Origin: Candidatus Altarchaeota archaeon
Lineage (GTDB): Archaea > Altiarchaeota > Altiarchaeia > IMC4 > QMZM01
Direction of reading: 5' to 3'
Assembly (NCBI GenBank): GCA_030633595.1
Contig: DAOVSE010000002.1
Location: 1 to 34,058 of the forward strand
DNA length: 34,058 nucleotides
Below are positions 2,251 to 31,207 of the stretch, piece by piece (within the stretch, counting starts at the first letter, position 1; the number at the start of each line of letters is the position of its first letter). The notes beneath the pieces were generated by a model, which had not been told where the DNA came from, ran no database searches, and was given only the letters and a program-made list of their open reading frames with translations. Both the position numbers and the translations under genes were made by a program.

Positions 2251-2372
2251 TTTAATCCTTCTGTCTTTTGTTTTTGAGATTATACCAAGACTGTTAGGTA
2301 TTGGATTCCAGTCTAAAAAGCTGATTTTTCGAATCTTTTAAGCATGAAAAATAATAATTGTTATGCCACAGA

Positions 2373-2445
2373 GCTGGGGTGGCCAAGCTCGGTTAGGCAG
2401 TCGGCTGCAGACCGACCAACGGGAGTTCAAATCTCCCCCCCAGCT
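2373..2445 (+). tRNA. tRNA-Cys (GCA)
   Basis: 73-nt cloverleaf: acceptor GCTGGGG/CCCCAGC, anticodon stem-loop GTCGG-CTGCAGA-CCGAC (anticodon GCA), T arm GGGAG-TTCAAAT-CTCCC, discriminator T. Confidence 0.95.
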
Positions 2446-2449
2446 AAAC
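2430..2449 (+). repeat. tRNA-Cys 3'-end direct repeat, copy 1 (attL-like)
   Basis: AATCTCCCCCCCAGCTAAAC, identical to 4423-4442. Confidence 0.85.
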
Positions 2450-2554
2450 AACTAAGTTCAAATCCCCCATTTAAGGGCTAAGAACTAAATAATAAACGCT
2501 GTCGTATTTCCCTCTGGGAGGAATTAGCTGCTGTCTATTTCCCTGGAGGGGAAA

Positions 2555-2713
2555 ATGCCGAAAGACAATCAGAATAGAAAACAACTCGCTGTAACAATCA
2601 AGAACTTGATTGAGAGTGGATGGAAACAAAGCGAGATAGCTGAGAGTATGGGGTACAGGCATAAATCCTCGATTACGCATCTCAAAAGTGATTTCCCAGA
2701 ATTGTTTAGTTGA
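2555..2713 (+). CDS. Small HTH DNA-binding protein (52 aa)
   Basis: MPKDNQNRKQLAVTIKNLIESGWKQSEIAESMGYRHKSSITHLKSDFPELFS; strong SD (GGAGGGG) just upstream; HTH-like WKQSEIAESMGYRHKSSITHLK. Confidence 0.65.
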   Translation: MPKDNQNRKQLAVTIKNLIESGWKQSEIAESMGYRHKSSITHLKSDFPELFS

Positions 2714-2960
2714 AAGTTGAAAACATAGGGAATATATCTAAATAGTAGAGAAAGTTTTTTGATTGATTAATGCCGTAATTTGTTTATTAATACTGGGTTG
2801 GATTTTCAGAGAGTTTATAGGGTGTTCCGGTGCGAAACTAAGGCATAGGATATAGAATACCCAACATATAAACCCCTATGGAGATGGGGTTTTCGGTGTG
2901 GTAACTCTCTCTGTGCGACTTATATACTTTTTATAGATTAAATCCTATATTATAACTACA

Positions 2961-3008
2961 AAATGCCCCCTAGTATTCCCTATTTAAAGGGGATGCTAGA
3001 TGCTTTTT
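2961..3008 (+). ncRNA. Candidate short structured RNA, unit 1
   Basis: Stem CTAGTATTCCC/GGGGATGCTAG (11 bp incl. G-U) followed by TTTTTT; TATA-like TTATATAC upstream at ~2920. Confidence 0.4.
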
Positions 3009-3068
3009 TCTATTTTTCATTAACTAAAACCATATACCATTTTTATACTATAAATGTAATAATAATAC

Positions 3069-3113
3069 AAAATGAGCCCCAGCATTCCTACGGGGATGCT
3101 GGACGTCCTTCTT
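3069..3113 (+). ncRNA. Candidate structured RNA or 5' leader, unit 2
   Basis: 10-bp stem CCAGCATTCC-[TACG]-GGGATGCTGG with a cUACGg (UNCG-type) tetraloop, TATA-like element upstream, just before the NYN ORF. Confidence 0.4.
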
Positions 3114-3123
3114 ATCTTATACT

Positions 3124-3696
3124 ATGATGGAAAATACTTCTGTTTTTATTGATGGTGCTTATTTATCCAAGATTGTGGATCACTTCTTTGAAAAGCGACC
3201 ATCGTTTAGAATTGATAAATTAGCCAGTGAGTTGGCTAAACGAGAGAATTTATGGTGTGATAGCATCCACTATTATACCGCCCCCCCGTACCAAAGCCCT
3301 ACTCCGACTCCTGAGGAAATAAAAAAGAAAGGAGGTTACGACAAATTTGTTTATTGTCTAAGACAGATACCACATTTTTATGTGCATGAAGGCAGGTGCC
3401 AGAAATTAGATGATGGGTTTCATCAAAAAGGAGTAGATACTCTACTTACTATGGGTTTAATGAGTGCTACAACAGACGGTGATTATAGGAAAATTATTCT
3501 GCTTGCATGCGATACTGATTTTGTCCCTATCTTGAACAAAATAAGAAGAGACTATAAAATCAAAGTCATATTGTATTATTACTCAGATTTTGTGAGAAAA
3601 TCTAGGTTTTCCATGTCAAACTATCTTCTCACCGCTTGCGATAAAAAAGTCCTCTTAACGAAAGAGTATTTTCATGATGGTATTCTAGTTAAGTGA
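3124..3696 (+). CDS. NYN (PIN-like) domain ribonuclease, LabA/DUF88-like
   Basis: 190 aa; VFIDGAYL, KGVDTLLTMGLMSAT and IILLACDTDFVPIL acidic motifs of NYN nucleases. Confidence 0.8.
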   Translation: MMENTSVFIDGAYLSKIVDHFFEKRPSFRIDKLASELAKRENLWCDSIHYYTAPPYQSPTPTPEEIKKKGGYDKFVYCLRQIPHFYVHEGRCQKLDDGFHQKGVDTLLTMGLMSATTDGDYRKIILLACDTDFVPILNKIRRDYKIKVILYYYSDFVRKSRFSMSNYLLTACDKKVLLTKEYFHDGILVK

Positions 3697-3846
3697 TTAT
3701 TTCTCTTTAGCCTCTTCCAGCTCCAGATTCCCCCGCTCATTAAACATGACCTTCAACACTTGGCCTTTACTCCATTTCTTAGCTTCCACGATCTTTTTTG
3801 GCACGGTCAGATAGTATTGTCCTTTGTTGGTTTGCTGCAATTTCAT
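3697..3846 (-). CDS. AbrB/SpoVT-like DNA-binding protein (49 aa)
   Basis: MKLQQTNKGQYYLTVPKKIVEAKKWSKGQVLKVMFNERGNLELEEAKEK; swapped-hairpin pattern; ATG overlaps the stop of the upstream gene. Confidence 0.75.
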   Translation of the reverse strand: MKLQQTNKGQYYLTVPKKIVEAKKWSKGQVLKVMFNERGNLELEEAKEK

Positions 3847-4343
3847 TTTATTTTTGTAAGGTTATCCTTTGATTCGAGGCGCATGTCTGGTTTGCTCTGT
3901 ATGAGGTGTGTGATGTGTCTTATTCCAACATCATCAATGAGTTTAAATGCTAAAAGAGCTGCAAGAACCATTATAACAACCCCCCACCCATCTATGAATA
4001 CACCAATGCAACTGAGTACCATAGTCGCAACAACAGGTAGACCCACAGACAGAGAAATTTGAAGAAGGGACATTAGTACATCTCCTTTTCCATCCTTATT
4101 GAAACCCTCAGAGAGAGCATTTTCCGCTTCTGAATTCACATCAGCTATGACAAGAAGCACCTTTCGTGTATAATGCTCACTCTCCTCAAGGAGGTTCATC
4201 AGTATCGTTCTTTCACCTGCAAGTAGCTCAGAAGCAACCTGTACATCCATCTTGGTTAAATGACGTCCTCTGAAATTTTCTGCTCTTTTGTACCAGCGAT
4301 CTCTGTAATCTAAAACTTCTTTGGGGATTTCAGGCGTTTCCAT
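3843..4343 (-). CDS. Small protein with two predicted TM segments
   Basis: 166 aa; charged N-terminal ~95 aa, then two hydrophobic segments LLQISLSVGLPVVATMVLSCIGV / GWGVVIMVLAALLAFKLI. Confidence 0.6.
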   Translation of the reverse strand: METPEIPKEVLDYRDRWYKRAENFRGRHLTKMDVQVASELLAGERTILMNLLEESEHYTRKVLLVIADVNSEAENALSEGFNKDGKGDVLMSLLQISLSVGLPVVATMVLSCIGVFIDGWGVVIMVLAALLAFKLIDDVGIRHITHLIQSKPDMRLESKDNLTKIK

Positions 4344-4422
4344 CTTAATATTCCTATGAATTTATATAGTATTTAAAGGATAAAAACCAATAATTACCTA
4401 TAGGGATTTAGACATTTCAGTT

Positions 4423-4442
4423 AATCTCCCCCCCAGCTAAAC
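4423..4442 (+). repeat. tRNA-Cys 3'-end direct repeat, copy 2 (attR-like)
   Basis: AATCTCCCCCCCAGCTAAAC, 20/20 identical to 2430-2449. Confidence 0.85.
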
Positions 4443-4465
4443 TGCCACTGTCAGTTTACACTATG

Positions 4466-4540
4466 GTGCCATCTTCGCAAGCTCGATGGTACTGTTCTTT
4501 GTTTTTCTTTCGTGCACGTTTCTTTGTTAAAGAAAGGTGC
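4466..4540. repeat. Double-hairpin element DH-1
   Basis: GTGCCATC-ttcgcaagctc-GATGGTAC (4466-4492) plus GCAC-g-TTTCTTT-gtt-AAAGAAA-g-GTGC (4514-4540). Confidence 0.65.
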
Positions 4541-4564
4541 GTTCAGATAACTCCCCCCAGCTAA
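4541..4564 (+). repeat. Degenerate tRNA-Cys 3'-end copy 3
   Basis: GTTCAGATAACTCCCCCCAGCTAA resembles tRNA tail GTTCAAATCTCCCCCCCAGCTAA. Confidence 0.6.
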
Positions 4565-4615
4565 GCCTTTAGAAAAGGCTTAGGATTCCAAATTGAATTT
4601 GCATAGCAAATTCAA
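4561..4615. repeat. Double-hairpin element DH-2
   Basis: CTAAGCCTTT-aga-AAAGGCTTAG (4561-4583) and TTGAATTTGC-ata-GCAAATTCAA (4593-4615), both perfect 10-bp stems with 3-nt loops. Confidence 0.7.
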
Positions 4616-4634
4616 AGGGAAGGTAGAATTGATT

Positions 4635-4653
4635 GTTCAAATTCCCCCAGCTA
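4635..4653 (+). repeat. Degenerate tRNA-Cys 3'-end copy 4
   Basis: GTTCAAATTCCCCCAGCTA resembles tRNA tail. Confidence 0.6.
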
Positions 4654-4687
4654 CATGATTTTATTCCTGAATATGTAATATCCTATT

Positions 4688-6142
4688 ATGACATCCCAGA
4701 TAATGAAGATAGTGATCTTCCTGGGGGTTATTTTCATTCTAGCATTTGCACTATTTTCCCTGATATTTGATTTGTTTGTTTATCCTGAAACAGCAACTAC
4801 AATAACAATTCCAACCAGCACAAGCACAACTACAAGTATTGTAAGTACAACAACTACATCTACTACAACAACGCAGACCACAACTACAACAGCCACAACA
4901 ACTGCCACAAGCACGTCTACAACAATTACAGAGCTGATACTAAAGGGCGTGGAAACTGTTGAGTACTCTGGATATGGATTAAATTTGAACAATATTGTGT
5001 CTACCAGTGGAGGGGATAAGTATTTAATTAGCATAAAAACGCCCGATGGAGCTACTGACGAAGTAGAGTTTTACGATAAGTTCGTTATAGATAATCTTGA
5101 GTTTGGAATATTAGAAAGGTATGGTGGGCTTAGCGTGAAGATCTATGTAAGGGACTATGATATTGCTACTTCTAGGGCGCCAAAACATTCAAAGATAATC
5201 ACATTGGGTGGGAAAAACTTTTTCTTGTTTGAAAGAACATTTATAGACTATAAATTCAAGTTGCACGGTAGGAAATTACACATCCAGAAACCTAATGGAG
5301 ATACAGACTCTTATGACATGCCTGACAACGGGAGTATAGTAGTGGATGATCTTGAGATTGGCGCTCTTCAATACAGTTATCCTAGTGGTTATACAGCGAT
5401 CTATATAAAATCATCATATGATTTCGAATTTTCCAATTACCTGAAAAGTGGGACATACAATAATATTCATAAAACTTTCGGAATATCATCGGAGGGGATA
5501 GACCTACTTGAAAATCCAGCACATTATATGCAGGAGAGAGATGGACCATTTGTATATTCCGTCGATGTCGGTTATATCCCGATGCAGGATATTTATGAAA
5601 ATGAAACGCTTGTCGATCTTGAGTGGAGGGGAAAGATACTGTTTGCTGGAGAGGAATTCTATGTTATGGATATTGAGGATGATACCATATATCTGGTAAA
5701 AGGCACGATAAGAGGGATAAACAATCTAAGATTTTCTAGTTCGTACTCAGGATATGAATTCAAGGCAAAGGGGTTATCATATAACCCTGAAGGTGACATA
5801 TCCAATATGTCCCTACTGATTCAAGATCCCGATGATCAAGAATCTTGCATTGTTTTGTATCCTAATCAGATCTCAATAATAGATGAGTATATCAGAATAC
5901 AGCCAATAACTGCATATAAGGAGAGAGGGGTTATAAGAGCGGATATATTCATATACGATCTATTCCCATTGGCCGTGTTGCAGAACGGTCAATCCATTCC
6001 ACATAAACCACAGTGGATAATTAAATTTGGGACAGTAGAACAACCATTCGGTGAAGATATGAATGTTGAAGAATACGAAAATATCACTAAAGGTCAAAGG
6101 CTCTTGGCAAATATTACCATCATACGACGTGAAAGGGTATAG
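4688..6142 (+). CDS. Secreted/anchored protein with N-terminal TM and Thr-rich stalk
   Basis: 484 aa; N-terminal hydrophobic helix then ~45-aa Thr-rich linker and beta-rich ectodomain. Confidence 0.65.
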   Translation: MTSQIMKIVIFLGVIFILAFALFSLIFDLFVYPETATTITIPTSTSTTTSIVSTTTTSTTTTQTTTTTATTTATSTSTTITELILKGVETVEYSGYGLNLNNIVSTSGGDKYLISIKTPDGATDEVEFYDKFVIDNLEFGILERYGGLSVKIYVRDYDIATSRAPKHSKIITLGGKNFFLFERTFIDYKFKLHGRKLHIQKPNGDTDSYDMPDNGSIVVDDLEIGALQYSYPSGYTAIYIKSSYDFEFSNYLKSGTYNNIHKTFGISSEGIDLLENPAHYMQERDGPFVYSVDVGYIPMQDIYENETLVDLEWRGKILFAGEEFYVMDIEDDTIYLVKGTIRGINNLRFSSSYSGYEFKAKGLSYNPEGDISNMSLLIQDPDDQESCIVLYPNQISIIDEYIRIQPITAYKERGVIRADIFIYDLFPLAVLQNGQSIPHKPQWIIKFGTVEQPFGEDMNVEEYENITKGQRLLANITIIRRERV

Positions 6143-29152: not shown

Positions 29153-31207
29153 CTATTCCTCTAGGTCCTCCCACTCCCCATCAAGGGCTTCCCAGTCTTC
29201 TAGCAGAACTCCCTCTCCTGCCCTCTTGCCCTTCTTCTTTCCCTTTCTCCCCTTGGGTGCCTTGGACCTTACAAAAATCGCAACTATTAAAAAGATTATC
29301 ACTAAGAAACCAACAAGTATTGCAGGGTTAGATAGTAGAGAAATTATGTCAGATTCCTCCGGTAGGGTGGTTGTGGTTGTAACAGTGAGGGTAGTTGTTG
29401 TGGTAGTTGTTGTAGCGTTCTTTTCTAGCAATATCCCCTCGACTATTGCCATTGAATAATCACATCTTAATAAGCCATCTGAATCGTTAATCTCCGCATA
29501 AATATCCCTCGCATTATTTAAATATTTTTTGGTCGATTCGTAATCCCTAACATTGTAATAGAGTAACGCCCTTGCATACTGGGAATCTGCCTCAGCCCTT
29601 CGATTATCGTTTAATCTCTCAGTGATATCCTCAAGTAATGAATCGCACTCTGAGACACCAGAAGAGAAATCTGCTTCAAGATATAATTGCCTCGCCCTTC
29701 CAAGGTAACTCTTTGCCTCTTGATACCTAGTTAATTCATAATTTTCCTTACCCAAGGCATAATATCTATCCGCACTCTGCTTCTTAACGAATGTTCCAAT
29801 TATCTCATACTCATAAACCATTCTATTTGATGTGGCTATTAGATCCTCGTAGCTATTATCGTCTAAATATGTAGAAAATATTCTATTGATGCCCCTAACA
29901 ACCAGTTTGTTGTACTTAAATTGACCGCTCCAATCGAGCTGACCGCTGTCGTCAATCACATACAGAATACCTTCAGATATCAGCAATATTTCATTAACTC
30001 CATGCTCATCAAGGGTTTTCATATACATCGCACTGATAGACGATTTTGGTTTCATTCGATACATCCATAACTCCTTGCCTTCTCTGTTGATGACCCCAAC
30101 GCCTGATATGCCAGAACTTGAATTTCTAAAACCAACGATTATCTCATCATTCCAATCGTTGTTTATATCCAGGACGTATAATTTCTTAACATCACCCCGA
30201 GCTTCATAACTGGCCTGTACATGGCCAGTATAATTAAAGACATATATCTTATTTCCAGAACCAACGATAATTTCTTCATCCCTATCATGATAGAAATTAG
30301 AAATGTCTGCATTCCAGAATGTATCTTCAATCTCTGACATATATGATTTTGACAGTAGATCCCCAGACTTATTGAATATAACAATGCTACCATTTACCAA
30401 GGATGACTCTGAGAAATTCCATCCCTTGTCTGTAGTTTCTTCCCATTCACATTCCATCCACGTCTCATTTCGATTACACTCATTGCTTTCATCATCCCAG
30501 AAACATCCGGGACAGGTACATTCAGCTTCAGTATAATAAGTATGTTTAATCTCCCACTCTGTCCAACAATGTCTATGTCTGTATACAATGTCAGTATATC
30601 TCTTAAAGTAATTGTTTTGATATCCCCCAGATACAACTATAACCTCATCCTTATCATCGCCATTAATATCGCTAATGATTATCGACCTCACCCACAGGTC
30701 AACTTCATCCCATCTGTTAATCTTTCCCCCATCTATAACATAGAAACTACCCTTGCTTTTAAGCACCTTATACAGCAGATCTTCTTCCTCTGGGATTCCG
30801 TCATACATGGAATAAAGTTCACTCTGATTTAGCTCTTTTGTCTCCATCCATCCCAAACCCAAGAGAATTTCATCCTCATCATCCTCGTCTATATCCTCCA
30901 TCTCAATCTCATAGATCTCGCCGGGCGTTTGTATGGTATATCTTTCGGTCAGGTTCCCGTTCCTATCGAGTATATATAAAGTATCGCCGGATGCAACGAG
31001 TACAACAGATCTGTTGTTTATCTTTCCTACGGTTAGAGCAGTGATATCATCGTCTACAGAGTATCTCCATTTAGGTATAATGTCCTCATCACCTAGGAAA
31101 GTCTGGGCGGAGGGAGAATTTATCAACAAAATCGTAAACATAAAAAATACTGCTATTGGTATAAGCCTGTTTTCAGACGTTTTCAGGAGATTGTATAATT
31201 TCACCAT
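29153..31207 (-). CDS. Surface protein: FG-GAP/propeller-like repeats, TPR-like region, Thr-rich stalk, C-terminal TM and basic/acidic tail
   Basis: 684 aa; IEDIDEDDEDEILLG, ISDINGDDKDEVIVVSG, LDINNDWNDEIIVG repeats; TPR-like YYALGKENYELTRYQEAKSYLGRARQLY; TTTTTTTLTVTTTTTLP; C-terminal TM. Confidence 0.75.
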   Translation of the reverse strand: MVKLYNLLKTSENRLIPIAVFFMFTILLINSPSAQTFLGDEDIIPKWRYSVDDDITALTVGKINNRSVVLVASGDTLYILDRNGNLTERYTIQTPGEIYEIEMEDIDEDDEDEILLGLGWMETKELNQSELYSMYDGIPEEEDLLYKVLKSKGSFYVIDGGKINRWDEVDLWVRSIIISDINGDDKDEVIVVSGGYQNNYFKRYTDIVYRHRHCWTEWEIKHTYYTEAECTCPGCFWDDESNECNRNETWMECEWEETTDKGWNFSESSLVNGSIVIFNKSGDLLSKSYMSEIEDTFWNADISNFYHDRDEEIIVGSGNKIYVFNYTGHVQASYEARGDVKKLYVLDINNDWNDEIIVGFRNSSSGISGVGVINREGKELWMYRMKPKSSISAMYMKTLDEHGVNEILLISEGILYVIDDSGQLDWSGQFKYNKLVVRGINRIFSTYLDDNSYEDLIATSNRMVYEYEIIGTFVKKQSADRYYALGKENYELTRYQEAKSYLGRARQLYLEADFSSGVSECDSLLEDITERLNDNRRAEADSQYARALLYYNVRDYESTKKYLNNARDIYAEINDSDGLLRCDYSMAIVEGILLEKNATTTTTTTTLTVTTTTTLPEESDIISLLSNPAILVGFLVIIFLIVAIFVRSKAPKGRKGKKKGKRAGEGVLLEDWEALDGEWEDLEE

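Follow-up and report, generated by a model that had tools for sequence, protein, structure and literature searches.

In the window, i.e. the whole stretch of 34,058 nucleotides of Candidatus Altarchaeota DNA that was analysed, two hairpin units lie directly before a gene for a NYN nuclease, and comparison with related archaeal loci points to an undescribed pair of the RNA-antitoxin kind, made up of the nuclease and a putative hairpin RNA. A type III-like module, with the NYN nuclease as toxin and the hairpin RNA as its antitoxin, is proposed here with modest confidence, from the sequences and from analogy with known systems. The proposal derives from an RNA gene with promoter- and terminator-like parts, the RNase gene behind it, the strict pairing of the two, their joint divergence, the patchy spread and an RNA that outlives the nuclease gene. 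No description of a module of NYN and hairpin RNA was found in the open-access papers searched, and Rfam 15 recognizes only the tRNA-Cys in the window region and no family in 17 related loci.

Hairpin units and nuclease gene of the window

Unit 1 (2963..3009, forward strand) opens with an AUG-CC-CCC lead-in, followed by a 12-bp hairpin at 2970-2999 (stem 2970-2981/2988-2999); 3' of the stem is CTTTTTTC, which contains a T-run at 3004-3009. A TATA-like element, TTTTTATA at 2928..2935 (+), lies approximately 30 nt 5' of the AUG at 2963; it is recognized by sequence and by the family-wide logo, with a BRE/TATA match weaker than in most family members. Unit 2 (3072..3120, +) has the lead-in AUGAGCCC, a 10-bp stem (3079-3088/3093-3102), a UACG loop at 3089-3092 and a T-rich 3' side, and by sequence and logo its TATA-like element, TTTTTATA at 3040..3047 (+), is at the family's conserved position. 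Common to both units are ACAAAATG and the hairpin. The initial annotation had described a duplicated TATA-plus-hairpin unit with covarying stems, the first copy ending in a T run and the second running into the nuclease gene, and all of this is borne out: the units are 109 nt apart, start to start, one U-A pair is replaced by C-G and one U-G by C-G with pairing kept, and 21 nt separate the end of the unit 2 hairpin from the NYN start at 3124. When folded, unit 1 (2963-3010) reaches -18.7 kcal/mol (z -4.6) and unit 2 (3072-3110), with its cUACGg-looped hairpin at 3079-3102, reaches -18.9 kcal/mol (z -3.8); no dinucleotide shuffle folds as well as either. No further copies of the hairpin were found in the window's own genome.

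The nuclease gene (3124..3696, +) encodes a NYN (LabA/PIN-like) protein of 190 aa. The open reading frame matches the Pfam NYN profile at 6.3e-12 (46.6 bits, against a cut-off of 24.2), and the AlphaFold2 model, based on 28 aligned homologs, has a pLDDT of 95 and a pTM of 0.90. The closest solved structures are VPA0982 (PDB 2qip; Foldseek E 2.5e-8) and the NYN domain of MARF1 (E 6.9e-7). With hardly any exceptions, 56 near-full-length NYN homologs retain the acidic residues that correspond to D10, D105, D130 and D132, and given this conservation the protein is likely to be an active nuclease. Profile score, PIN-like fold and acidic residues together are those of the NYN ribonuclease family. 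In three related loci (L067 2431-3288, L030 663-1420 and L041 879-1452) the NYN sequence is interrupted near one place, before or around a YYTAPPFQS motif: L067 has an in-frame insert there, and L030 and L041 have breaks. Is this an insertion hotspot, or decay? Either would account for it.

A family of hairpins and its association with NYN genes

A protein search with the window NYN gave six archaeal relatives with 46-57% identity. In five of these, 21-58 nt separate a UACG hairpin from the NYN start downstream of it. The sixth, L014 from Micrarchaeota, seemed to have none when the six loci were first viewed, which is ruled out: its hairpin lies just 3' of the NYN gene, on the other strand, and has a TATA and a T-rich end of its own. 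The initial annotation had proposed a search for hairpins near homologous NYN genes, their absence being what would speak against its idea, and they are indeed present. In L012 and L013 the stem is CTGGTGTTCC/GGGACGCCAG in place of CCAGCATTCC/GGGATGCTGG; both partners are changed in several pairs, yet pairing is kept throughout. A gap-free MAFFT alignment of the first six sequences has 100% of stem cells paired and three pairs with changes on both sides. Starting from six loci, covariance models R1, R2 and R3 were built successively, and R1 scores unit 1, which was left out of its building, at 40.3 bits. The models led to 76 aligned hairpins, in which 99.0% of 720 stem cells are paired and two-sided changes occur in 8 of 10 pairs. 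The 117 double-change cells were reached by 0 of 500 shuffles, a count inflated by the fitting of this alignment to the model, but the gap-free six-sequence set shows the same pattern.

Conserved across the family are the promoter, the AUR-NN-CCC lead-in, the stem and an AUG that closely follows it. The loop varies (UACG, UUCG, GCAA, GAAA and longer ones). Thus the UNCG-class loop noted earlier is there in unit 2, but it is not a conserved part, and a UNCG loop was rejected as the functional core. With the consensus AUR-NN-CCC-stem-AUGA and a TATA at -32, further members can be found from sequence alone. A subclass (L029, L066, L079, L087, L090/L091 and L128) has a second small hairpin, e.g. 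CAATC-TTCG-GATTG, between TATA and main hairpin.

Hairpins beside homologous NYN genes occur in Diapherotrites, Micrarchaeota, Pacearchaeota, other Nanoarchaeota-like genomes and Thermoplasmata-type archaea. The distribution is patchy: R2 finds hairpins in 48 of 379 genomes in the phylum of L016, and R3 in 4 of 92 genomes of the Micrarchaeota phylum and 1 of 19 of the Diapherotrites phylum. The phylum of L013, with R3 hits in 2 of 344 genomes, both already known, serves as a specificity control. Within the window's own phylum the protein search found no NYN homologs, but the RNA model finds a hairpin in genome G018, after which come ATGATGGAAAAAAC and a stretch of N, so the absence of NYN there is partly a matter of assembly. 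Searched with the units at the DNA level, the window's family gave only short, weak and mostly AT-rich matches.

How strict is the pairing of hairpin and nuclease? A NYN match adjoins 65 of the 76 hairpins, mostly on the same strand and with the NYN start 3-90 nt downstream. Conversely, in the 379 genomes of the L016 phylum, every close NYN gene (protein score of at least 180 bits) has a hairpin (51/51): 47 were recognized by R2, and the other four, which are diverged, by R3 run unfiltered (26-34 bits) and by visual inspection. The covariation over 76 hairpins, the fixed promoter and this near-perfect co-occurrence strongly support the earlier suggestion that a gene for a structured small RNA is linked to NYN. 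Divergence of the NYN and of the hairpin are correlated (Mantel r 0.53, 0/5000), a correlation that joint vertical descent would produce as well. Of the more distant NYN genes, 4 of 24 match the hairpin model; 14 distant genes were examined, 13 have a strong hairpin within 130 nt upstream, and 12 of these hairpins beat every control window of their own locus. The principle of hairpin plus NYN therefore seems to reach beyond this sequence family. Distant genes at L133-L137 are preceded by a different hairpin type, ATATACCCCCYAGGTTTGCACYGCAACCCTRGG and close variants, then a T-run.

A number of hairpins are found apart from an intact nuclease gene. Some precede broken NYN frames (L030, L038, L041, L048, L077) or NYN fragments only (L054, L058, L082, L087), others have no NYN (L029, L032, L057, L066, L078, L088), and one (L018) runs up to an assembly gap. 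Isolated hairpins still have a promoter and a T-run. Hairpins thus persist beside broken or absent NYN genes, and a close NYN without a hairpin was not seen (0/51), an asymmetry that is typical of antitoxins and that compares differently ascertained sets. Orphan hairpins have MNT-HEPN pairs as neighbours at L066 and L078 and a DUF3368 remnant at L032. A functional link to the MNT-HEPN modules was considered and set aside: at least L078 has a TATA-like element between hairpin and MNT gene, and hairpin and MNT-HEPN are therefore read as neighbours in toxin-antitoxin islands.

Predicted transcription and possible role of the hairpin RNA

Outside the modelled columns, the promoter logo has a BRE AA at -36/-35, TTTATAAA at -32..-25 and then TAA-N-AT, with positions counted relative to the conserved AT of the lead-in. 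General archaeal promoter spacing fixes the start of transcription relative to TATA, and so transcription would begin at AUR or within a few nt of it, i.e. at or near 2963 and 3072. The stem is followed by AUGA and then usually by a T-run; a T-run of at least four within 22 nt of the stem is present in 59 of 76 hairpins, against 22% of random 22-mers. The window would then carry a small noncoding RNA gene in duplicate, in tandem and with an archaeal promoter for each copy; the transcripts would end in the T-run past the hairpin. The predicted product is an RNA of approximately 45-50 nt, 5'-AUR-NN-CCC-hairpin-AUGA-U-tract, and read-through would yield the NYN mRNA. By binding the NYN protein, the hairpin RNA may restrain the nuclease, in the manner of type III toxin-antitoxin modules. 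What the sequences themselves show is the structure with its covariation, where the promoter lies, the T-run, the adjacency, the NYN fold and the conservation of acidic residues; from these we infer the transcript ends, the toxicity of NYN and its neutralisation by direct RNA binding.

Loci differ in layout. In class I the hairpin is followed by the NYN start. In class II (12 hairpins) the 5' end of the NYN frame takes in both hairpin and TATA, the latter being read as KIYK-like residues; with one exception an ATG is found 45-54 nt upstream, sometimes with a Shine-Dalgarno-like sequence. Class III is convergent, with the hairpin gene on the strand opposite to NYN (L014, L027, L040, L048); hairpin sequences are identical in three of these four loci, so the class represents only two lineages. 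In L043 (970-2115), a HEPN-domain frame passes the hairpin without a stop into the NYN frame.

Could the hairpin act only in cis, as a leader or attenuator that with its T-run ends most transcription, or that NYN binds or cuts, giving a self-limiting nuclease with no role for the RNA in trans? An attenuator-like hairpin and T-run directly before NYN on the same strand in most loci would fit, and an antitoxin RNA of Clostridioides difficile, RCd22, works in cis besides trans (PMC12373285). This similarity counts against the antitoxin reading, as a cis-only leader would look much the same at most loci; so does class II, where the hairpin, being inside the NYN frame, must be translated too. But the NYN mRNA cannot carry the hairpin at the convergent loci, which argues that the RNA is a separate small molecule and not only a leader; the class II start codon lies 5' of the hairpin's own promoter, so that this promoter would serve the RNA and not the gene start; and isolated hairpins keep promoter and T-run. 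A purely cis-acting role, the chief alternative to the antitoxin, is considered unlikely. Among the roles listed in the initial annotation (guide, substrate, autoregulatory leader or RNA antitoxin), the antitoxin fits best, and the leader suits most loci but fails at the four convergent ones.

The two other roles on that list fare less well. As a cofactor or guide, the RNA would belong to a ribonucleoprotein defence effector, as the subunit by which NYN is targeted to, or activated against, foreign RNA. Strict pairing with joint divergence, the conserved single-stranded AUR and AUGA flanks and a weak match of NYN to the PADLOC defence candidate HEC-09 (2e-4) are in keeping with this, but there is almost no unpaired sequence beyond these flanks for a variable guide, and a CRISPR-like array or other effector genes were not seen beside the window copy; we regard such a role as improbable. 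It is more doubtful still that the hairpin is a natural substrate or decoy mimicking a cellular RNA cleaved by NYN. This would account for the tight sequence conservation and the RNA-protein pairing, and could be compatible with the antitoxin model as a binding mode. However, no Rfam family matches, and the likeness of the UACG loop to what we take to be helix 14 of 16S rRNA was rejected, as it is lost in most members. Does the conserved AUG instead open a leaderless reading frame (MxP[SG]xPTGxxD...) for a small protein? The idea was attractive on six loci, where the frame is kept; AUG is present in 56 of 73 distinct hairpins, and changes between the two window copies are mostly at third positions. 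Yet among 63 class I/III rows, 11 have no ATG (ATA or ATT in its place), 14 have frame-breaking lengths and 13 run into a stop within 12 codons, and substitutions of S/I/M/L by G/V/T/P track base pairing and not the peptide. The leaderless peptide was rejected on these grounds, and only a very slight chance is given to a small protein.

The putative antitoxin RNA can be compared with established systems. Type III modules have a structured noncoding RNA upstream of an endoribonuclease gene, and the sequences here show the same, the four convergent loci excepted. A single promoter with a terminator between RNA and toxin would agree with the logo and with the 59 T-runs, and class II and convergent loci deviate; as for an antitoxin in tandem repeats, the window and L069 have two copies each and most loci have one. 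ToxIN, CptIN and TenpIN likewise have an RNA upstream of an RNase gene with a terminator between, but combine ToxN-type toxins with pseudoknot antitoxins in 34-50 nt repeats (PMC5086642); here a single simple hairpin is joined to a nuclease with a NYN/PIN-like fold, so the module is not of their kind. The AbiF-RCd22 system of C. difficile, which is type III-like and has a HEPN toxin and an abiF-motif RNA acting in cis and in trans, is similarly built of promoter, hairpin motifs and terminator, then a nuclease-type toxin gene, and compensatory stem mutations keep RCd22 function, which matches the covariation of the archaeal hairpin (PMC12373285). Unlike the NYN module, it is bacterial, its RNA is approximately 100-130 nt and its toxin is HEPN/Abi_2; no sequence relation was found (no Rfam match), and the NYN module lacks the HEPN/Abi_2 toxin and abiF RNA motif that define the AbiF type. 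VapBC and MNT-HEPN modules also have RNase toxins in archaeal genomes, and MNT-HEPN or DUF3368 remnants adjoin three orphan hairpins, but the antitoxins of these modules are proteins.

The NYN domain also occurs in other settings. A CRISPR-associated NYN of Bacteroides fragilis is a Mn-dependent, nonspecific ribonuclease of single-stranded RNA and proposed to trim crRNA, not to act as a toxin, which counts against a toxin reading of NYN; it differs in its type III CRISPR locus, where no partner hairpin RNA gene is described (PMC11346440). The LabA/DUF88-like VPA0982 and the MARF1 NYN domain have the same fold as that predicted for the window protein. We know of no small RNA gene associated with LabA/DUF88-like NYN proteins or MARF1 NYN. 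RNA antitoxins are, to our knowledge, known mainly from bacteria and with few toxin folds. If true, the pairing of NYN and hairpin RNA across DPANN-type archaea would add a toxin fold and an RNA family, and would constitute a characteristic RNA-based module of archaea, with a simple and directly testable pair. A bolder proposal, made tentatively and with some doubt, is that there are undescribed, widespread archaeal modules in which NYN subfamilies each have a cognate hairpin RNA, forming orthogonal antiviral or addiction pairs that arose independently of ToxIN and AbiF, possibly with the RNA as specificity subunit rather than inhibitor.

The tRNA-Cys island

The module is carried by an island at 2430..4442, bounded by direct repeats (2430-2449 and 4423-4442, 20/20 identical), each an exact 20-nt match to the 3' end of tRNA-Cys; degraded copies lie at 4547 and 4639. 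The earlier description of an integrated island holds for the window; it is not general, as among 60 related loci, each of a few kb, ARAGORN finds only four with tRNAs, and tRNA islands were dropped as the general setting. The stretch 2372-4655, with the tRNA-Cys and the copies of its 3' end, is read as the outcome of several integrations at a single tRNA; an integrase gene was not seen between them. Other open reading frames of the island encode an HTH-like protein of 52 aa (2555-2713; phrog_2339, 3e-4), a weakly MazE/AbrB-like one of 49 aa (3697-3846, reverse strand) and one of 166 aa with hydrophobic stretches and no Pfam match (3843-4343, reverse strand). Elsewhere in the window, 4688-6142 and 29153-31207 encode membrane-anchored proteins with long Thr-rich stretches.
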